Shown here one piece after another: positions 52,778 through 60,835 of a stretch of 64,000 nucleotides of DNA. The notes below the pieces were generated by a model. The model was not told the DNA's origin, made no database searches, and saw nothing but the letters and a program-made list of their open reading frames with translations. Numbering within the stretch: position 1 is the stretch's first letter; every line of letters starts with the position of its first letter. The DNA lies in contig NZ_CP040710.1 in assembly GCF_005943945.1 (NCBI RefSeq), positions 755,001 through 819,000 on the forward strand, given 5' to 3'. The stretch comes from Aggregatimonas sangjinii (GTDB lineage Bacteria > Bacteroidota > Bacteroidia > Flavobacteriales > Flavobacteriaceae). Both the position numbers and the translations under genes were made by a program.

Positions 52778-53542
52778 CTATCTTATTTTTTGAACAAAAT
52801 CCGAAACGGAGTCCGCCCCGTGGGCGGTCAAATGTTTGATAAAGGCCGAGCCGATGATAGCACCTTTGGCGTTTTTGGTGGCAGTTTGAAAGGTTTCTGC
52901 ATCCTTAATGCCAAAACCAACGATTTGTGGATTTTTCAACTGCATTTCGGCAATACGTTGAAAATAGGTTTTCTGTTCCTTACCAAACCCTGACTTCGAA
53001 CCGGTCACACTTGCCGAACTTACCATGTAAATGAAACCGTTTGATGCTTCGTCGATCTGACGAATGCGTTCATCGCTGGTTTGCGGAGTAATCAAGAACA
53101 CATTGATCAGACCGCACTTTTTAAATACGGCCTCATAATCGCTCTGATACACGTCGAGCGGCAAGTCGGGCATGATAATGCCATCAATACCGATTTTATT
53201 ACATTTTTTACAAAAGGCTTCCACCCCGTATTGCAACATCGGATTAAAATACCCCATAACGATTAGCGGAATGGAAACGCTTTTTCGAATGTCCTTCAGT
53301 TGCTCGAATAGTATCTCTGTCGTCATACCATTTTTAAGGGCAGCGGTAGAACTTTCCTGAATGGTCGGTCCATCGGCCAAAGGGTCGCTGAACGGCAAGC
53401 CGATTTCAACCATATCGACGCCGTTTTTCTCTAAATCCTCTATGATTTTTTCGGTGTCATTTAAGGAAGGGTAGCCCGCGGTAAAGTAGATGGATAGGAG
53501 TTTTTTGTCCTCTTGGAGTTTTTGGTTTATTCTGTTATTCAT
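52778..53542 (-). CDS. trpA: Tryptophan synthase alpha subunit
   Basis: 254 residues; cleaves indole-3-glycerol phosphate to indole, channelled to TrpB. Catalytic Glu46 and Asp57 lie in MVEIGLPFSDPLADGPTIQ. SSASVTGSKSGF and VGFGIKDAETF are further family motifs. It is the last biosynthetic gene of the operon but is separated from trpB by the GIY-YIG ORF and two hairpin repeats (425 bp). A small membrane protein gene follows at once. Confidence 0.96.
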   Translation of the reverse strand: MNNRINQKLQEDKKLLSIYFTAGYPSLNDTEKIIEDLEKNGVDMVEIGLPFSDPLADGPTIQESSTAALKNGMTTEILFEQLKDIRKSVSIPLIVMGYFNPMLQYGVEAFCKKCNKIGIDGIIMPDLPLDVYQSDYEAVFKKCGLINVFLITPQTSDERIRQIDEASNGFIYMVSSASVTGSKSGFGKEQKTYFQRIAEMQLKNPQIVGFGIKDAETFQTATKNAKGAIIGSAFIKHLTAHGADSVSDFVQKIR

Positions 53543-53549
53543 ATCACGC

Positions 53550-53588
53550 TGTCATTCCCGCTCACCTGCCGGCAGGGGCGGGAATCTG
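53550..53588. repeat. Left hairpin repeat flanking the GIY-YIG ORF
   Basis: The sequence starts TGTCATTCCCGC and ends GCGGGAATCTG. ATTCCCGC (53554-53561) pairs with GCGGGAAT (53578-53585), with a nested CTGCC/GGCAG palindrome in the centre. Related to the repeat at 56833 (GTCATTCC...GGAATCTG) and, in opposite orientation, to the one at 53942. Confidence 0.75.
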
Positions 53589-53622
53589 TTTAATTAATTC
53601 CGATTTTCTTAAAAGCTATTTT

Positions 53623-53913
53623 TCAGTCTCCCAACATCCAAGAAAGGTCATTCCAATCTGGGTTCATGTCATTTATCAAATTCTCTTTCCATTGTCTACG
53701 CCAATGTTTTAATTGTTTTTCTCTTTTGATTGCATTGTTTACATATTGCGTTTTTTCAAAATAGACCAATTTATGAACACTATACTTTTGTGTGAAGCTT
53801 TTATTATTTTTTGATTTATGTTGTTGTATTCGTGATTTCAAATTATTTGTCATCCCTGCATATAAAACAGTATGGTTTTTGTTTGTTAGTATGTATACAT
53901 AATACTTATGCAT
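53623..53913 (-). CDS. GIY-YIG family small nuclease
   Basis: 96-residue single-domain GIY-YIG protein. YYVYILTNKN and VLYAGMTNNL form the name-giving two-part motif; Arg in LKSRIQQH and Glu in KREKQLKHW are the catalytic positions. It would cut DNA in a metal-dependent way. Base composition is markedly AT-rich against the surrounding trp genes. It interrupts the trpB-trpA junction and is flanked by inverted hairpin repeats at 53550-53588 and 53942-53965, consistent with a mobile or repeat-associated unit. It may be transcribed with the trp operon. Confidence 0.88.
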   Translation of the reverse strand: MHKYYVYILTNKNHTVLYAGMTNNLKSRIQQHKSKNNKSFTQKYSVHKLVYFEKTQYVNNAIKREKQLKHWRRQWKENLINDMNPDWNDLSWMLGD

Positions 53914-53941
53914 TTGATTGACATTCTTTCTGATTCAAGGA

Positions 53942-53965
53942 ATTTCCGCCTGCGCGGAAATGACA
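53942..53965. repeat. Right hairpin repeat flanking the GIY-YIG ORF
   Basis: ATTTCCGC (53942-53949) pairs exactly with GCGGAAAT (53954-53961) over a CTGC loop, followed by GACA. Read on the minus strand it begins TGTCATTTCCGC, matching the left repeat TGTCATTCCCGC in inverted orientation. It ends 3 bp before the trpB stop codon. Confidence 0.75.
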
Positions 53966-53967
53966 AA

Positions 53968-55203
53968 CTATTTTAACCCAAAATAGTCGATATAGGTATT
54001 CAAGTCCTTATCCCCGCGCCCCGACAAACCGATAACCACAATATCGTCCGGTTTGAATTTTCGATGCTCGAATATGGCGAACGCGTGGCCTGTCTCTATG
54101 GCCGGAATGATTCCTTCCAGCTGCGAAAGCTCCAGACCAGCGGTCATTGCTTCGTCGTCAGTGGCCGAATAAAATTCCGCCCTGCCGGATTTGTGCAAAT
54201 GGGAATGCATAGGTCCAACACCGGGGTAATCCAATCCAGCGGAAATGGAATAGGGTTCTGTAATTTGTCCGTCTGCTGTTTGCATCAACATGGTTTTACA
54301 GCCGTGAATGATACCCACTTTCCCCAAAGCCGAAGTCGCCGCGCTTTCCCCGGAATCGACTCCTTTACCGGCAGCTTCGACAGCTATGATACCAACTTCA
54401 GGTTCATTTAAAAAGTGATAATAAGTTCCTGCGGCATTGCTGCCACCACCGATACAGGCAACGACATAGTCCGGATTTTCGCGGCCCTCTTTTCCCTTTA
54501 ATTGCCATTTGATCTCTTCGGAAATAACCGATTGAAATCGTGTGACCATATCGGGGTAGGGATGCGGCCCGATGGCAGATCCGATAATATAATGGGTATC
54601 GACAGGATTGTTGATCCAATCGCGAATGGCTTCGTTCGTGGCATCTTTCAAGGTACGGCTTCCGGACAAGGCGGGTCGTACTTCGGCTCCCAACATTTTC
54701 ATTCTGGCTACATTCGGTGCTTGTCGGGCAATATCTATTTCGCCCATGTATACAATACATTCCATACCCATTAAGGCACACACAGTAGCCGTAGCGACAC
54801 CGTGCTGGCCCGCGCCGGTTTCGGCAATGATTCTTCTTTTACCCAAGCGTTGCGCCATCAAAATCTGACCTATGGTGTTGTTCACCTTATGCGCTCCAGT
54901 ATGGTTGAGATCTTCCCGTTTCAGGTATACTTTGCAGCCATGCTTTTGAGACAGACGTTTCGCAAAGTATAGAGGCGAAGGCCTACCAACATAGTCTTTC
55001 AGTAATTGATGGAATTCTTCCTGAAAAGATTCCTCATACATGATATCCAAGTACTTTTGGCGTAATTCCTCAACATTGGGATAAAGCATTTCAGGAATAA
55101 AGGCGCCTCCAAATTCACCATAATATCCTTTTTCATCCGCGTGGTATGGTCCATGGTGCTCCGGTCCTTTAATCGAAGTATTCTTTGTTTTTTCTTTCTG
55201 CAT
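53968..55203 (-). CDS. trpB: Tryptophan synthase beta subunit
   Basis: 411 residues; PLP enzyme that joins indole and serine to tryptophan. PLP Lys106 lies in HTGAHKVNNTIGQ, the phosphate loop is GGGSNAAGTYY, and GEFGGAFIPEML and GRGDKDLNTY are family motifs. An N-terminal extension of about 15 residues precedes the usual start. It lies 155 bp after trpF; that gap holds a heptamer repeat and a small hairpin. Confidence 0.97.
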   Translation of the reverse strand: MQKEKTKNTSIKGPEHHGPYHADEKGYYGEFGGAFIPEMLYPNVEELRQKYLDIMYEESFQEEFHQLLKDYVGRPSPLYFAKRLSQKHGCKVYLKREDLNHTGAHKVNNTIGQILMAQRLGKRRIIAETGAGQHGVATATVCALMGMECIVYMGEIDIARQAPNVARMKMLGAEVRPALSGSRTLKDATNEAIRDWINNPVDTHYIIGSAIGPHPYPDMVTRFQSVISEEIKWQLKGKEGRENPDYVVACIGGGSNAAGTYYHFLNEPEVGIIAVEAAGKGVDSGESAATSALGKVGIIHGCKTMLMQTADGQITEPYSISAGLDYPGVGPMHSHLHKSGRAEFYSATDDEAMTAGLELSQLEGIIPAIETGHAFAIFEHRKFKPDDIVVIGLSGRGDKDLNTYIDYFGLK

Positions 55204-55278
55204 TTTTTTATGTTCAATAATCCGCCCCTATGCATCGGGGATAATTTGTAATCTTTCACCTGACTTTTCGCAGGTTTC

Positions 55279-55328
55279 GTATGTTCTCTATGTTCTATGT
55301 TCTATGTTCTATGCTCTATGCTCTATTC
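55279..55328. repeat. Heptamer tandem repeat between trpF and trpB
   Basis: The unit ATGTTCT occurs once, then after a CT insertion three times perfectly, then twice as ATGCTCT and once degenerate. It lies in the intergenic 155 bp. A small hairpin CCCC-TATGCAT-CGGGG is at about 55226-55242, close to the trpB start. Copy number may vary by slippage. Confidence 0.75.
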
Positions 55329-55358
55329 TCCGTTATCTGCCTACCGGCGCCAGTTCCA

Positions 55359-56039
55359 TTATTTTAGCTCCATTTTAAAACTTTGCAACTTTTCAATATT
55401 TTTCAAGCCAGGCATATCCTCAAATTTACTGTTCACATCAATAACCTCACAGTATTTCGCTTCCGGACGATTCATAAACTTTTTGATGGAATCGATTTCT
55501 TCCAACCCAATGCCCCCACTTAAAAAATAAGGCTTGGTAGAAGGGTATTGCTTTAGTATTTCCCAATTAAAAGCGTAGCCATTTCCACCCGGTAGTTTTC
55601 CTTTCGTATCGAACAGATAATAATCACACACATCCTCGAAAGGCTTCAGTTGTCCGAAATCGAAATCGTCTTTTACGGAAAAAACCTTGATGATCTTTAT
55701 ATTTGGAATCGCTTTTTTCAGTTCATCGCAAAATGCAGGCGTTTCTTTGCCATGCATTTGCACCAATAGTAGTCCGCAGGTTTTGACCTTTTCGAGAATG
55801 TCCGAGAGTGGGGCATCGACAAATACACCTACCTTTTTGATATGATGTGGAATCGATGGCATTTGCCCTTCAAAATATCGTTTGGAGGGTTCCCAGAAGA
55901 TAAAACCCAAATAGTCGGGTCTCAACGCAGCCACCTCCATGGTATTTTTATTCATCCCGCAGACTTTAATGCCTACCCCAGCATTCCTGTTTTTCAAAGA
56001 AGTTTCATTTTTGTCGCTATTTGGATTCGTTGACTTCAA
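55359..56039 (-). CDS. trpF: Phosphoribosylanthranilate isomerase
   Basis: 226 residues; isomerises phosphoribosylanthranilate to CdRP in tryptophan synthesis. Catalytic Cys27 is in IKVCGMN, and LLVQMHGKE, FLSGGIGLEEID and EVIDVNSKFE are the other family motifs (acidic catalytic residue in the last). The start is TTG at 56039, 1 bp after the trpC stop; a later ATG would remove the catalytic Cys. An N-terminal tail of about 22 residues is extra. Confidence 0.94.
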   Translation of the reverse strand: MKSTNPNSDKNETSLKNRNAGVGIKVCGMNKNTMEVAALRPDYLGFIFWEPSKRYFEGQMPSIPHHIKKVGVFVDAPLSDILEKVKTCGLLLVQMHGKETPAFCDELKKAIPNIKIIKVFSVKDDFDFGQLKPFEDVCDYYLFDTKGKLPGGNGYAFNWEILKQYPSTKPYFLSGGIGLEEIDSIKKFMNRPEAKYCEVIDVNSKFEDMPGLKNIEKLQSFKMELK

Positions 56040-56040
56040 C

Positions 56041-56823
56041 CTAATTTATTTTTTGAATAAATTCTGCAGCGCTTTTGCCGGGATCGGCTGTTTTCATAAA
56101 ATTCTCACCAATTAAAAAACCTTGATAGCCGTATGGTTTTAAATCCGTAATTGCGTCGATAGTACTGATTCCACTTTCGGAAACTTTAACGAAGTCATCT
56201 GGAATCAATTCCGACAACGTTTTACTGGTCTCTAAACTCACTTCGAAAGTTTTTAGATTACGATTATTGACGCCCAACATGTCCAAACTCGGCATGATAG
56301 ATTTCTGTAATTCCGTTTTGTTATGAACCTCCAGCAACACTTCCATATCCAAGCTTTTGGCAAGTTCGGAAAAGATTTTTATTTCTGCTCTGGACAACAC
56401 CGCCGCAATCAATAGGATTACATCTGCGCCGTGGGCCTTGGCCTCCAGAACTTGGTATTCGTCAATAATAAACTCTTTTCGCAGCAAGGGTATGGTCACG
56501 GATGCGCGTGCCAATACCAAGTCTTCCAACGAGCCTCCAAAATATTTGATATCGGTAAGTACGCTCATCCCGCATACGCCAGCTTTTTGATACCCTCTGG
56601 CAACTTGGCCCACATTGGTATCTTGATTGATGGTAGATTTGGAGGGCGAACGTCTTTTGTGTTCAGCGATGATGCCCGTTGAACTATCTCGCAAGGCCTT
56701 TGCCAATGAAAAAGTATCGCGATCGAATAGGGCGGAAGCTTCCAACTGCGAGGCAGGAATAAGTGATTTTTTCAAATCGACTTCTTTTCGTTTGTCCGCT
56801 ATTATTTTATCTAGAATGTTCAT
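56041..56823 (-). CDS. trpC: Indole-3-glycerol phosphate synthase
   Basis: 260 residues; closes the indole ring from CdRP. IIAEHKRRSPSKS holds catalytic Lys55, and VLTDIKYFGGSLEDL, GVNNRNLKTFEV and SESGIST are family motifs. The ATG at 56823 is preferred to one 14 codons upstream that would extend into the repeat region. trpF follows after 1 bp, so the two are translationally coupled; fusions of the two are common elsewhere. Confidence 0.96.
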   Translation of the reverse strand: MNILDKIIADKRKEVDLKKSLIPASQLEASALFDRDTFSLAKALRDSSTGIIAEHKRRSPSKSTINQDTNVGQVARGYQKAGVCGMSVLTDIKYFGGSLEDLVLARASVTIPLLRKEFIIDEYQVLEAKAHGADVILLIAAVLSRAEIKIFSELAKSLDMEVLLEVHNKTELQKSIMPSLDMLGVNNRNLKTFEVSLETSKTLSELIPDDFVKVSESGISTIDAITDLKPYGYQGFLIGENFMKTADPGKSAAEFIQKIN

Positions 56824-56832
56824 ATCTATTTC

Positions 56833-56860
56833 GTCATTCCGAGTGAAGTGAAGGAATCTG
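56833..56860. repeat. Hairpin repeat in the trpD-trpC gap
   Basis: GTCATTCC at 56833-56840 and GGAATCTG at 56853-56860 enclose a 12-base centre. ATTCC/GGAAT pairs as a short stem. Both ends match the hairpin at 53550-53588 with a different centre, so this is a dispersed repeat family. It is followed by CTTCGACTGAACTTCAGC (from 56882), another motif common in Bacteroidetes intergenic DNA. Confidence 0.65.
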
Positions 56861-56934
56861 TCCAATCATTGCTAACTTCCCTTCGACTGAACTTCAGCAA
56901 GCTCAGTAACTTCGTTCAAAATCTTATTTTCAGT

Positions 56935-57930
56935 TTAATTTTTGCTCAATTCTTGCAACCGCTTCAAGGCTTTCAATCCACTACCATTCAATAGCGATTC
57001 CTTGGCTTTCTCAAAACCATCCTTAATGTGGATGTTCTCGACCGTCGCAATGGCAACGCCCGCGTTAGCACAAACCACATTGTTCTGTGCCTCTGTGCCC
57101 TTGCCCTGTAGCACGTTTAAGAATATTCCCGCTGATTCGGCGATGTCGTCACCACCAACGATATCGGATTGCTTGATAGTGCTTACCCCAAAATCGGAAG
57201 GTTTGATCATGCCTTCACTGGTATTGGAAATCGTTTTGGTATTTCCCGTCAAGGATATTTCATCATACCCGTCCAAAGCGTGTAAGACCGTGAAATGCTT
57301 ATCGGTGTTCTGGTAGAGATAGCCGTACATACGCGCCAATTCCAGATTAAACACCCCGACCATTTGGTTCTTCGGAAAGGCTGGATTAACCATTGGTCCT
57401 AACATATTGAAAAAGGTCTTGACCCCCAATTCCCTTCGGATGGGAGCCACATTCTTCATGGCCGGGTGGAATAGGGGAGCGTGCAATACGCAAATGCCCG
57501 CTTCATCGATCGACCGTTCTAAAAAATCTGCCTTATTGCTGAATTTGATACCTAAAAACTCCATGACATTACTGCTGCCACATTTAGAGGAAACGCCGTA
57601 ATTACCATGTTTAGTAACCTTGATTCCTGCTCCGGCGGTTACAAAAGAGGCCAAGGTGGAAATATTGAAAGTGTCTTTACCGTCACCGCCCGTTCCGCAT
57701 AGATCAACCGGATTGTAGGCCGATAGATCTACCGCCAAACACAATTCCAGTAGCGCATCCCGAAAACCTTCCAACTCTTCTATGGTAATACTGCGCATCA
57801 TATACACGGTCAGAAAGGCGGCGATCTGGCTGGTATTGTAATCGCCCTTTGCAATATTGACCAAGATCTGCTTTGCGTCCTCTTTGGAGAGGATGTCATG
57901 GTTTATCAGTTTATTTAACGTCTGTTTCAT
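56935..57930 (-). CDS. trpD: Anthranilate phosphoribosyltransferase
   Basis: 331 residues; transfers the PRPP ribosyl group to anthranilate. PRPP site CGTGGDGKDTFNIST (about 78-92), KHGNYGVSSKCGSSNVME and NMLGPMVNPAFP are diagnostic. Between trpG (103 bp away) and trpC (111 bp, with a hairpin repeat). Confidence 0.97.
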   Translation of the reverse strand: MKQTLNKLINHDILSKEDAKQILVNIAKGDYNTSQIAAFLTVYMMRSITIEELEGFRDALLELCLAVDLSAYNPVDLCGTGGDGKDTFNISTLASFVTAGAGIKVTKHGNYGVSSKCGSSNVMEFLGIKFSNKADFLERSIDEAGICVLHAPLFHPAMKNVAPIRRELGVKTFFNMLGPMVNPAFPKNQMVGVFNLELARMYGYLYQNTDKHFTVLHALDGYDEISLTGNTKTISNTSEGMIKPSDFGVSTIKQSDIVGGDDIAESAGIFLNVLQGKGTEAQNNVVCANAGVAIATVENIHIKDGFEKAKESLLNGSGLKALKRLQELSKN

Positions 57931-58033
57931 CGATCGTACTTTTGTTTTTTATTCTCACGAAGGGAGCATCACTCCTATTCATTTTGCGGTATCTACTCCA
58001 TACCCCTGGACCGCCAGAGCTCGGGGCGAACAT

Positions 58034-58597
58034 TTAATTAGTTAACCAGTTTTCCAACATCTTTTTCCCGTCCGGGGTCAGAACCGACTCTGGGTGAAAC
58101 TGCACGGCACACACATCGTATTGCTTATGCCGTAACGACATGACCTGTCCGTTTTCATCAAATGAAGTCGCTTCCAACACTGCGGGAAGTTCCGGATTCA
58201 CGACCCATGAGTGGTAACGACCGACTTCGATTTGCTTGGACATTCCTTCGAACAAAATATCATCTTGGGTGATATTGATGGTCGTGGCGATACCGTGATA
58301 GACTTTGTCTAAATTGATCAGACTGCCTCCGAAAACTTCGGCGATGGCCTGTTGCCCCAGGCAGACCCCGAAAATACTTTTGGTAGCCGCATATTTATCG
58401 ATTATAGCTTTTAGTAGCCCAGCCTCGTCAGGTATTCCCGGCCCTGGAGAAAGCACGATTTTATCGAATTGGTCTACTTCATTCAGTGTCAACTGGTCGT
58501 TTCTTTTGACGATCACTTCGCAGTCTAAATCTTCCAAATAATGCACTAAGTTGTACGTAAAACTATCGTAATTATCTATGACAAGTATCTTCTTCAT
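58034..58597 (-). CDS. trpG: Anthranilate synthase glutamine amidotransferase component
   Basis: 187 residues; releases ammonia from glutamine for TrpE. Nucleophile Cys79 in FGVCLGQQAI and the His/Glu pair in VQFHPESVLT complete the triad. PGPGIPDEAG is the usual early loop. Separated from trpE by 1 bp, so coupled. Could also serve p-aminobenzoate synthase, as is common for TrpG. Confidence 0.96.
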   Translation of the reverse strand: MKKILVIDNYDSFTYNLVHYLEDLDCEVIVKRNDQLTLNEVDQFDKIVLSPGPGIPDEAGLLKAIIDKYAATKSIFGVCLGQQAIAEVFGGSLINLDKVYHGIATTINITQDDILFEGMSKQIEVGRYHSWVVNPELPAVLEATSFDENGQVMSLRHKQYDVCAVQFHPESVLTPDGKKMLENWLTN

Positions 58598-58598
58598 T

Positions 58599-59996
58599 TT
58601 AAATCGTTTCAGCTATTTCGAGCGCCTTTGTCAAGGCTCCCAACTTGTTATAGGTTTCTTGAAGCTCATCTTCCGCATTGGAGGCCGCCACCAAACCGGC
58701 ACCGGCTTGATAGTGTAATTGGTGATTTTTGCTCAGGAAAGTGCGGATCATGATGGCATGGTTGAAGTTCCCTTTAAAATCCATAAAACCGATGGCACCG
58801 CCATAGTATCCGCGGCTTGTTTTTTCGTACTTCTCGATAAGCTGCATCGCCATGTGTTTTGGAGCGCCACTCAGGGTACCTGCGGGAAAGGTATCGGCCA
58901 CTACCTTCATGGTGGTCACGTCTTTTTTCTTATGGCCTGTGACCTTTGATACAAGGTGGATTACGTGAGAAAAGAATTGCACCTCTCTATAATTAGTCAC
59001 TTTTACGGTGCTTCCGTTCCTGCTCAAATCGTTTCTGGCCAGGTCGACCAACATCACATGTTCACTATTTTCTTTATGGTCTTCTGTGAGCTCTTTGGCC
59101 AAAATGGCATCTTGCTCGTCGTTTCCCGTACGTTTGAAGGTGCCGGCGATGGGGTGAATTTCAGCAATGCCGTCTTTTACGATGAGCTGCGCCTCGGGAG
59201 AACTTCCGAAAATCTTAAAATCGCCGTAATCGAAATAAAAGAGATAAGGTGAGGGATTCACCGAGCGCAACGCCCTGTAGACATTAAATTCATCCCCTTT
59301 AAAACCTTGTGAGAACCTACGCGACAGCACCAATTGAAACACATCGCCCCTCTGACAATGTTTTTTGGCCAGTTCAACGTGTGCTTTATAGTCGTCATCC
59401 TCGAGATTGGAGGTGGCATCTCCATCCATAGAAAAATTGTAAGAGGCAAAATTCTTTACGTTTAAAATTTGTTCTATCTCCGGAATATTGTTTTCCGATT
59501 CGTAGCAATGCGCGAATATATAGGCTTCGTTCTTAAAATGGTTGATTGCGATTATGTTCTGGTATACCGCGTAATAGATGTCGGGAATGCCAATAGAACC
59601 TTCTTTTTTATGCAACGAAATGTCTTCATAATAGCGCACCGCATCATAGGCCATGTAGCCGAACAAGCCATTATCGATAAATTTAAAATCGCTTTTTCCG
59701 CCCTCGAATTGTTGACTGAAATCGTGGATCAAGCCTACCACATCTGTCTTAGCGCCGATTTCCATTTTATCGGAAGTACCATCGGGCAGGAGCTTTTCGA
59801 CACGCTCATTATCTACTTTTATAGAGGCGATGGGATTGCAGCAGATGTAGGAAAAACTATTGTCGTTGGCGTGGTAGTCGCTACTTTCCAACAATATACT
59901 GTTCGGAAACCTATCCCTGATTTTCAGATAGACACTTACGGGTGTGATGGTGTCCGCCAAAATTTTTTTGTGGTGCGATGTGAGATGATATTTCAT
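58599..59996 (-). CDS. trpE: Anthranilate synthase component I
   Basis: 465 residues; converts chorismate and ammonia to anthranilate. The N-terminal LLES (in ILLESSDYH) is the tryptophan feedback-inhibition motif. The chorismate-binding domain has SPEAQLIV, EIHPIAGTFKRTGNDEQD, LVDLARNDLSRNG and FPAGTLSGAPKHMAMQLI. First gene of the operon. Upstream is a leader peptide with attenuator, so tryptophan controls it both by attenuation and by feedback. Confidence 0.97.
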   Translation of the reverse strand: MKYHLTSHHKKILADTITPVSVYLKIRDRFPNSILLESSDYHANDNSFSYICCNPIASIKVDNERVEKLLPDGTSDKMEIGAKTDVVGLIHDFSQQFEGGKSDFKFIDNGLFGYMAYDAVRYYEDISLHKKEGSIGIPDIYYAVYQNIIAINHFKNEAYIFAHCYESENNIPEIEQILNVKNFASYNFSMDGDATSNLEDDDYKAHVELAKKHCQRGDVFQLVLSRRFSQGFKGDEFNVYRALRSVNPSPYLFYFDYGDFKIFGSSPEAQLIVKDGIAEIHPIAGTFKRTGNDEQDAILAKELTEDHKENSEHVMLVDLARNDLSRNGSTVKVTNYREVQFFSHVIHLVSKVTGHKKKDVTTMKVVADTFPAGTLSGAPKHMAMQLIEKYEKTSRGYYGGAIGFMDFKGNFNHAIMIRTFLSKNHQLHYQAGAGLVAASNAEDELQETYNKLGALTKALEIAETI

Positions 59997-60018
59997 GAAA
60001 TCAAAACCTATTTACATT

Positions 60019-60045
60019 AAAAAAGGCCTGTCGTGATGACAAGCC
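60019..60045 (-). terminator. trp operon attenuator (intrinsic terminator in the leader)
   Basis: The minus strand reads GGCTTGTC, ATCAC, GACAGGCC (one G-T wobble), then six T. It sits between the leader peptide stop (60076) and trpE (59996). With Trp codons in the leader peptide upstream, it is expected to stop transcription when charged tRNA-Trp is plentiful. A competing antiterminator was not resolved with certainty. Confidence 0.85.
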
Positions 60046-60075
60046 TAGTATAGTTTTACTACAATGATGCTTAGC

Positions 60076-60129
60076 TCACGAATGTTGTCGAGAGTTATTC
60101 CACCAAGTAGCTGTTATTCTTAATTGCAT
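60076..60129 (-). CDS. trpL: trp operon leader peptide
   Basis: 17 codons, MQLRITATWWNNSRQHS, then TGA. Trp9 and Trp10 are adjacent TGG codons (60100-60105), the mark of a ribosome-mediated attenuation peptide. The ATG is 4 bases after a consensus -7 box, so the transcript is probably leaderless. The terminator follows 30 bases after the stop. Too short for ordinary gene finding; the call rests on the tandem Trp codons, the promoter and the attenuator together. Confidence 0.85.
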   Translation of the reverse strand: MQLRITATWWNNSRQHS

Positions 60130-60133
60130 ACTT

Positions 60134-60164
60134 CAAATATAGAAATCATTTTTAAAATCACCAA
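60134..60164 (-). promoter_or_regulatory. trp operon promoter
   Basis: On the minus strand TTG (60162-60164), 20 bases, TATATTTG (60134-60141), then 4 bases to the leader ATG. This is an exact match to the phylum's promoter consensus. Confidence 0.85.
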
Positions 60165-60256: not shown

Positions 60257-60835
60257 TTAGAATTCTAAATCTACGACCAAATCAAATTCGTCATATATAG
60301 CCTTATCCTTTAAATCATCGAAAAAGCTAGCTGACCCATATTTTACATCGTAGTTGGTACGGTCCACTTTCATAGTTGCTGTGGCCTTGCTCCCATAAAC
60401 CGATACATCAAAGGTTACAGGTTTGGTAATTCCCTTTATCGTTAAATCACCAGTTACTTCGTAAGAATTTTTACCGGTCGACTTCACGTCGGTAAATTTC
60501 AAAGATGAGGTGGTGTGATTAGCGGTGTCGAAAAAATCGCCTGAATTCAAATGTCCATCCAACTTTCCTTTGGAATCACCCTCTAAATCTTCTGTGCTGA
60601 TGGTAGTCATATCGACCGTAAATTCCCCACCGGTCAATTGATCACCATCAAATACCAATGCGCCTTCTTTCAAATCAATACTACCGTAATGCGAACCGGT
60701 AACTTTATAGGCTTTCCATGTCACCTTACTGGTTTCCGTGTTGACTTCTTTCTTCTCTTCCGCAACCGGCTCTGTGGCCATTGCTGTAAAACCGAATACT
60801 ACGGCCAATGCTACACTAAATACTGTCTTTTTCAT
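60257..60835 (-). CDS. YceI family secreted lipid-binding protein
   Basis: 192 residues. Signal (KKTVFSVALAVVFGFTAMA) followed by a YceI lipocalin-like barrel (about 35-192): VTWKAYKVTGSHYGSIDLKE, FTVDMTTISTEDL, LTIKGITKPVTFDV. YceI proteins bind isoprenoid-type lipids in the periplasm. It lies 97 bp downstream of marR and may be co-regulated; that gap holds an inverted repeat at 60857-60899. A strong terminator follows. Confidence 0.9.
   Translation of the reverse strand: MKKTVFSVALAVVFGFTAMATEPVAEEKKEVNTETSKVTWKAYKVTGSHYGSIDLKEGALVFDGDQLTGGEFTVDMTTISTEDLEGDSKGKLDGHLNSGDFFDTANHTTSSLKFTDVKSTGKNSYEVTGDLTIKGITKPVTFDVSVYGSKATATMKVDRTNYDVKYGSASFFDDLKDKAIYDEFDLVVDLEF

Follow-up and report, generated by a model that had tools for sequence, protein, structure and literature searches.

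A predicted ribosome-mediated attenuator before the trp operon of Aggregatimonas sangjinii, a local counterpart of Bacteroid-trp RNA

The trp leader of Escherichia coli, family RF00513 in Rfam, carries a tandem-Trp leader ORF, segments 1–4 and a terminator before trpE. The Bacteroidota are not known to use Shine-Dalgarno initiation. For flavobacteria, initiation without Shine-Dalgarno signals is also described in PMC9723704, which further reports clues to leader-peptide attenuation before amino-acid operons of F. psychrophilum, elements before pheA and hisG that are common to other genera, and a TAnnTTTG box that spans -12 to -5 relative to the mapped start sites. The RNA family Bacteroid-trp (RF01692) goes back to work by Weinberg et al. 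2010 (PMC2864571), and a 2019 paper (PMC6414381) placed a Bacteroid-Trp RNA before the F. psychrophilum trp operon and compared it to the E. coli trp leader. In Sinorhizobium meliloti, the 5' end of the trp leader RNA (trpL, or rnTrpL) is the ATG of trpL, and this RNA acts in trans (PMC7298713).

We analysed a stretch of 64,000 nucleotides of A. sangjinii (the window), in which a sequence-only reading had claimed a trp attenuator with a leaderless leader gene. Judged from its predicted folds and their conservation, the region before trpE is very probably (probability about 0.92) a trp attenuator of the ribosome-mediated type and the local counterpart of Bacteroid-trp RNA.

Layout of the trp leader and its operon

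On the minus strand, a promoter, a leader ORF, a terminator and trpE can be read in this order in the window sequence. The features are listed below with the evidence for each.

60162..60164, minus strand: -33 promoter element TTG, read in the sequence; a TTG lies 15–25 nt 5' of the box in 155 of the 168 family elements with an exact TAnnTTTG (a count without a chance control)
60134..60141, minus strand: -7 promoter element TATATTTG; exact TAnnTTTG in 168 of 170 family elements; predicted start site 60129
60076..60129, minus strand: leader ORF MQLRITATWWNNSRQHS, 17 codons plus TGA (60078-60076), predicted to be leaderless; a leader with tandem Trp is present throughout the family elements (170 of 170)
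60100..60105, minus strand: tandem Trp codons, the putative regulatory codons, from the sequence and from Trp-codon counts across the 170 family elements
60088..60094, minus strand: core of segment 1, CUCUCGA, predicted to pair with segment 2 without a ribosome (window fold of the full leader)
60069..60081, minus strand: segment 2, UCGUGAGCUAAGC, which includes the leader stop codon (pairing counts, covariation, folds)
60031..60046, minus strand: segment 3, AGGCUUGUCAUCACGA, comprising the terminator 5' arm, the loop and the first bases of the 3' arm; predicted antiterminator partner of segment 2 (stalled-ribosome folds)
60018..60046, minus strand: intrinsic terminator (segments 3:4) with U-run (sequence, covariation, terminator scan, ribosome-at-stop fold)
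60038..60148, minus strand: extent of the RF01692 (Bacteroid-trp) alignment, below the gathering score (31.4 bits, E 0.069, cut-off 49)
52778..59996, minus strand: operon trpE-trpG-trpD-trpC-trpF-trpB-trpA, putatively regulated (Pfam for the first six genes, trpA by sequence reading only)

The TTG (60164-60162) and TATATTTG (60141-60134) are spaced by 20 nt. The terminator, AGGCTTGTC-ATCAC-GACAGGCCT-TTTTTT (60046-60018, stem 60046-60024), has 9/9 stem pairs, one of them G-U, and 29 nt separate it from the end of the leader ORF (60076). The tandem-Trp leader ORF thus lies between the promoter and trpE, and the intrinsic terminator between this ORF and trpE. Hence, the consensus promoter, the 17-codon leader with two tandem Trp codons and the terminator before trpE, all three claimed earlier, are present in the window. 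The ATG of trpE is at 59996; trpE, trpG, trpD, trpC, trpF and trpB were assigned by Pfam, the ORF 53542-52778 was named trpA from its sequence only, and with trpA the operon is complete. The upstream neighbour, a YceI-like gene, ends at 60257. It may be noted that a strong terminator-like hairpin with 14 pairs (60217-60186) follows the YceI-like gene, just 5' of the trp promoter.

Conservation in the family and predicted alternative folds

Family elements were examined in the window and in 169 loci upstream of trpE (n = 170). The 169 loci comprised the best 80 of 580 from one scan, together with 29 and 60 from a trpE search of the family that gave a match in 278 of 299 genomes. From the trpE search, 89 loci were read in addition to that of the window, namely the 29 next best and then 60 from lower among the listed matches. 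Left out were 51 matches of intermediate rank, part of those lower down and the unlisted tail, of which L188, L189, L286 and L287 are the sole representatives. The genomes sampled are biased toward higher similarity, and the 170 elements are not independent, as species recur between both sets and 95 of the 170 remain at <94% similarity. For comparison of spacings, the window and L004–L112 were treated as the window's set (n = 110), and the other set held 60 more divergent family loci.

In every family element (170/170), a GCYTGTC...GAC terminator comes after an ORF with tandem Trp codons. The sequence-only reading had named loss of the Trp codons or of the terminator in close relatives as a result that would speak against it; both are kept throughout. 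The number of Trp codons, however, is not typical: the two codons reported earlier are true of the window, but they are the exception, two being found in 6/170 (the window and five others) and three in 164/170. Since three are present in each of the other same-genus elements read (5/5), the window leader has probably lost one Trp codon. The leaders of L129, L149 and L157 were missed by the ATG scan; their start codons are TTG, GTG and TTG, respectively.

Two variations of the element were also observed. In L011 and L275 (from the same genome) and in L022, the leaders MNRNNVNTWWWNNS and MIYNSIQTWWWNNFR stop early and end before segment 2, so that a ribosome at the stop codon would be positioned further upstream. 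In L069, L082, L084, L088 and L033, a small GIY-YIG nuclease-like gene lies between the attenuator terminator and trpE. The ORF has 94 aa in L069, L082, L084 and L088 and 71 aa in L033, while a remnant of 31 aa is left in L101; the Pfam search covered only the protein of L069. The distance from the terminator to locus position 1500 (the trpE start) is 385–401 nt in L069, L082, L084 and L088. The inserted gene would fall under the control of the attenuator.

When the region was scanned for terminators, the trp terminator was one of 10 found in 7.5 kb, where chance alone would give 7.9. The hairpin alone is therefore weak evidence, and it is conservation that carries the case. The pattern GCYTGTCN{0,4}TCACGAC has a single occurrence in the genome (4.72 Mb). 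Among 95 non-redundant sequences, the terminator stem pairs in 100% of the cells, and 2/8 pairs have changed on both sides. The full 112-nt leader of the window folds at -29.5 kcal/mol, compared with -18.57 for shuffles (z -3.60; 0/200).

The predicted antiterminator consists of UCGUGA/UCACGA and UAAGC/GCUUG. In the window, the UCGUGA of segment 2 is the last sense codon (Ser) plus the stop codon, and segment 3 ends in UCACGA. When the best hexamer facing segment 3 was sought in each element, 6/6 pairs were found in 158/170 and 5/6 in 12/170, whereas the same best-of search on shuffled spacers gave 6/6 pairs in 69/1700. The facing hexamer is UCGUGA in 153/170. Its start relative to the stop codon is -3 in 124 elements, -8 in 21, +6 in 15 and elsewhere in 10 (n = 170). 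Because UCGUGA is kept while its place relative to the stop shifts, its independence of the reading frame fits selection on RNA pairing rather than on the peptide, and is the best evidence for such selection. Another candidate for segment 2, CGACAA in the leader with UUGUC in the terminator, is present in the window, but it is not conserved, some relatives carrying, for example, CGAAAA at this place, and it was dropped.

Predicted folds were then compared for different ribosome positions. When the ribosome was placed at the second Trp codon and the polymerase at the end of segment 3, the antiterminator formed in 169/170 elements, taking up the terminator arm as well, compared with 217/1700 dinucleotide shuffles; at three footprint sizes the shuffle controls gave 190, 217 and 205 of 1700. 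The stalled fold of the window has 12 pairs and -15.4 kcal/mol, against -7.52 for shuffles (z -3.72). The antiterminator partners, at which the sequence-only reading had only guessed, thus hold up in the predicted folds. With the ribosome placed at the stop codon, the terminator formed in 170/170; this is a weak test because hardly anything other than the hairpin remains to fold. The mutually exclusive hairpins that had been proposed as a check are accordingly predicted by the models: the antiterminator excludes the terminator, and would be freed by a ribosome at the Trp codons.

In the mechanism that we propose, polymerase would start at or beside the AUG, and a ribosome would load on the AUG at the 5' end of the nascent RNA. 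When charged tRNA-Trp is low, the ribosome would stall at the two Trp codons and cover segment 1. The Ser-stop region within segment 2 would then be left free to pair with the 5' arm and loop of the terminator, and read-through into trpE would follow. With enough tryptophan, the ribosome would reach the UGA and cover segment 2, the 3:4 terminator would form, and transcription would stop. Without a ribosome, the whole leader is predicted to be most stable as the 1:2 hairpin plus the terminator. The 1:2 hairpin of the window prevails only after the terminator is complete. In transcripts ending at segment 3, again without a ribosome, segment 2 pairs with upstream letters in 130/170 elements, but not in the window, where such a transcript already folds as the antiterminator. 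For this reason, the no-translation state of the window is not clear-cut in the models.

Covariation of the antiterminator pairs was examined as well. On alignment A2, for which the hexamer that pairs best had been taken as segment 2, so that the percentages favour the model, the antiterminator pairs form in 91.0% of the cells (95 non-redundant sequences). After sliding by 1 to 3 columns, they form in no more than 58.3%. Changes on both sides were seen at 2/7 pairs and in 4 cells, against a shuffled mean of 0.7; L135, with UCGUAA/UUACGA, is a compensatory example. The outermost pair, 10-69, was seen as A-U, C-G, G-C, U-A and G-U, and forms in only 38/93 cells. The covariation score, on the other hand, was not above that of shuffles (136/500 reached the observed value), and versions slid by +1 and +3 columns outscored the true register. 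The covariation is thin, and its score falls below these slid versions, because most antiterminator columns are nearly invariant. In L188 and L189, two divergent loci of the family, the letters differ and pairing occurs in a shifted register, at a modest -7.9 kcal/mol each.

Promoter spacing and the 5' end of the leader RNA

The -7 box of the window ends 4 nt before the ATG. If the TAnnTTTG box occupies -12 to -5, as in F. psychrophilum (PMC9723704), this gap would place +1 at the A of the AUG, at 60129. Gaps were measured in all family elements by a script that took the in-frame ATG nearest a box, and which therefore favours short gaps. In the window's set (n = 110) they were 4–5 nt in 75 and 6–8 nt in 27 (4–8 nt in 102), and longer in 6, with no exact box in 2. 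In the 60 more divergent family loci they were 4–8 nt in 9, 9–13 nt in 10, 14–22 nt in 39 and longer in 2. As a yardstick, 1/39 ATG ORFs of at least 200 codons in the window has an exact box at a gap of 4–8 nt.

The earlier claim of a leaderless gene consequently stands as a prediction for the window's clade, but does not extend to the majority of the more divergent relatives sampled. Because 39/60 of the latter have gaps of 14–22 nt, a leaderless or nearly leaderless trp leader would be a trait of the clade. The alternative that this is a working attenuator whose true start lies further upstream, with an ordinary short 5'UTR, draws on those long gaps (14–24 nt in 42 of the 168 family elements with an exact box, longer in 5), on the preference of the script for short gaps, and on the 2/170 elements in which the exact box is missing. 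Published figures point the same way: the median 5'UTR is 24 nt in F. psychrophilum and 32 nt in B. thetaiotaomicron, leaderless mRNAs make up 5.5% in F. psychrophilum, and 5'UTRs of <10 nt about 3.7% in B. thetaiotaomicron. We nevertheless regard an upstream start as unlikely, given the 4-nt gap of the window itself, the short gaps that prevail in its set and their rarity before the long ORFs of the window.

Leader ORFs before other amino-acid operons were also observed in the genome of the window (G000), with His, Ile/Val/Leu and Phe leaders before hisG, ilvD and pheA. Upstream of hisG (L216:1188), the His leader ORF MRNKKTHHHFYHCAQAR is followed by a terminator recognized by eye; a His-rich leader ORF precedes hisG in 14/14 HisG loci fetched, and a conserved 5' element before hisG in Flavobacteriaceae has already been published. 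Upstream of ilvD (L234:1115), the leader ORF MKAVEVNVILVVRNSG is accompanied by a strong terminator, and comparable Ile/Val/Leu-rich leaders were seen in L231, L233 and L235 (same genus) and in L229 (same order), of 14 ilvD loci. Upstream of pheA (L260:1346), the Phe leader ORF MIKQYFWNRFYFYFFFKGSTRLL is accompanied by a terminator; such leaders occur in 9/10 loci, and L260 gave a sub-threshold match to the Rfam family Phe_leader (31.6 bits). No Thr leader was found before thrA when nine regions were searched for Thr/Ile runs with a terminator.

These leaders bear on a broader idea, namely that the trp, his and ilv leader ORFs of this branch of the Bacteroidota are deliberately placed at the 5' end of the RNA (~0–4 nt of +1). 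Were it true, a ribosome would be captured once the AUG leaves the polymerase, giving the tight coupling that attenuation needs. Nearly all of the his, ilv and phe boxes are 5-of-6 matches. The idea is supported by the short trp gaps of the window's set (102/110). In the his leaders, the gap is 7–8 nt in 11/11 family loci (5-of-6 or 6-of-6 boxes), with a second, 5-of-6 box in 10/11 at a gap of 14 nt. The gap is 4–5 nt, with 5-of-6 boxes in every case, in the ilv leaders, where the spacing covered four same-genus leaders of the 14 ilvD loci and the same-order candidate L229 was left out. The phe leaders are contrary to such placement, with gaps of 17–18 nt in 8/9 and 11 nt in one, and so are the same-order his leaders (n = 3; 17–19 nt or no good box) and the long gaps in 39/60 divergent trp leaders. 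Deliberate placement is thus a tentative suggestion from sequence, and one that we hold to be somewhat doubtful.

A leader RNA that begins at its AUG also recalls Sinorhizobium, where the RNA of this kind acts in trans (PMC7298713), and the terminated RNA or the peptide of the window's element might likewise act in trans besides its action in cis, as rnTrpL and peTrpL do. The residues just before the Trp run are indeed conserved (N at -2 in 133/170, T at -1 in 131/170). In the full fold of the window, however, letters of the codons before and within the Trp run pair with bases beyond the stop codon. The Rfam hairpin spans the same region, so that this conservation can be explained by pairing. 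The remainder of the peptide is variable, and its end shifts between species. Selection on the peptide may also be the cause of the conserved residues, although their codons can pair. An additional action in trans therefore seems improbable to us, and we retain the reading of a cis-acting attenuator.

Comparison with catalogued and described leaders

In the 64-kb window, no Rfam family, T-box and other cis-regulators included, reached its gathering score. At a relaxed threshold, the best Rfam match of the element was RF01692, at the 31.4 bits given above. An element independent of Trp (an ordinary terminator, a T-box or a TRAP-type attenuator, with a coincidental WW ORF) would agree with the abundance of terminator-like hairpins in the region, but is highly improbable in view of this best match, of the tandem Trp codons kept in every family element and of predicted folds that switch with the position of the ribosome.

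The RF01692 model (1-131) aligned over its full length at 60148-60038, with trpE as the next gene. As the 49-bit cut-off was not reached, we do not count the window element as a member, but regard it by sequence as the aligned counterpart, or a close sub-threshold relative, of RF01692. Its close relative L004 (TrpE 90% identical) scored 49.9. Among 20 sampled family loci, 13 reached the cut-off and three more scored 42.7–43.8; in the other 4/20 (L014, L033, L112, L171) no match was found at E 0.1. Twenty other sources, 18 of them trpE-upstream regions, gave one match, the family member L188 (43.1). When whole genomes were searched (15 genomes), five matches were obtained, four of them over the cut-off. 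At E 0.001 there was none in the genome of the window, and among the 14 control genomes a match appeared only in Bacteroides ihuae.

Model R1, built from alignment A2, found one locus in the genome of the window, the trp leader, where a weaker second match overlaps the first on the other strand. Among 31 genomes it matched 17, at a single locus each, with no match in 12 same-order genomes or in the family genomes G444 and G003. A wider role of the motif beyond trp was rejected on the grounds that the terminator pattern is unique in the genome and model R1 finds a single locus.

Forty further regions upstream of trpE were read in a scan without a chance control, 20 from 18 same-order or same-class loci plus L188 and L189, and 20 from Bacteroidota of other classes. 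A short ORF with a Trp run and a T-tailed hairpin was seen in 20/20 of the first group; all 18 same-order or same-class loci have the Trp ORF and a terminator, 16 with tandem Trp and two with Trp-Leu-Trp (L177, L180). In the other classes, a Trp-rich leader-like ORF was found in 12/20 (without tandem Trp in L201), and a terminator in 11 of these 12. The other 8/20 showed no Trp-rich leader ORF near a terminator; four of them list a hairpin (L196 and L198, and weakly both L208 and L211), and in L196 a Trp-Trp ORF lies 557 nt upstream. By sequence, Trp leaders therefore precede trpE widely in the Bacteroidota, with gaps. The fold test on 31 more distant loci (L188 and L189 included) gave a mean z of -1.9 with wide scatter, much weaker than in the family. 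L192 was a clear failure (z +1.83), and only 5/31 pair more segment-3 bases than all but at most 4% of their own shuffles.

The attenuator is not of a new kind. The novelty that the sequence-only reading had implied is lower, the element being the counterpart of a catalogued family whose RNA was already placed before a trp operon. What is added here is the antiterminator, the full terminator and the placement of the start, the first two because the Rfam model stops inside the 5' arm of the terminator. With these additions, the published Bacteroid-trp RNA becomes readable as a complete four-segment attenuator, and it is seen that the RF01692 cut-off misses elements such as that of the window. 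As far as sequence tells, this is otherwise ordinary amino-acid control by a textbook-like trp attenuator, and the remaining interest lies in the 5'-terminal start codon, which, as predicted, would make a clean model for ribosome-polymerase coupling on a leaderless RNA without Shine-Dalgarno signals.

The window element shares with RF01692 its place before trpE, the Trp-codon leader and an end-to-end alignment. It differs in that its spacer is shorter and one Trp codon is missing in the alignment, and that the model, ending in the terminator 5' arm, holds neither the full terminator nor the antiterminator. From the leader elements of F. psychrophilum it is set apart by the antiterminator, which is described here for the window element, none being given in the passages of PMC9723704 and PMC6414381 that concern these elements. 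A leaderless trp leader is not unique to the clade of the window, as one is known in Sinorhizobium (PMC7298713); that leader RNA is leaderless, as is predicted here, but it belongs to another phylum, its peptide and RNA sequence differ, and the functions in trans were shown for that leader. Like the E. coli trp leader, the window element has a tandem-Trp leader ORF, segments 1–4 and a terminator before trpE, and RF00513 was absent from the seven Rfam matches listed for the region at E up to 5. Unlike in E. coli, segment 2 of the window overlaps the stop codon and is predicted to pair with the loop and 5' arm of the terminator, and the AUG is predicted to lie at or near +1.
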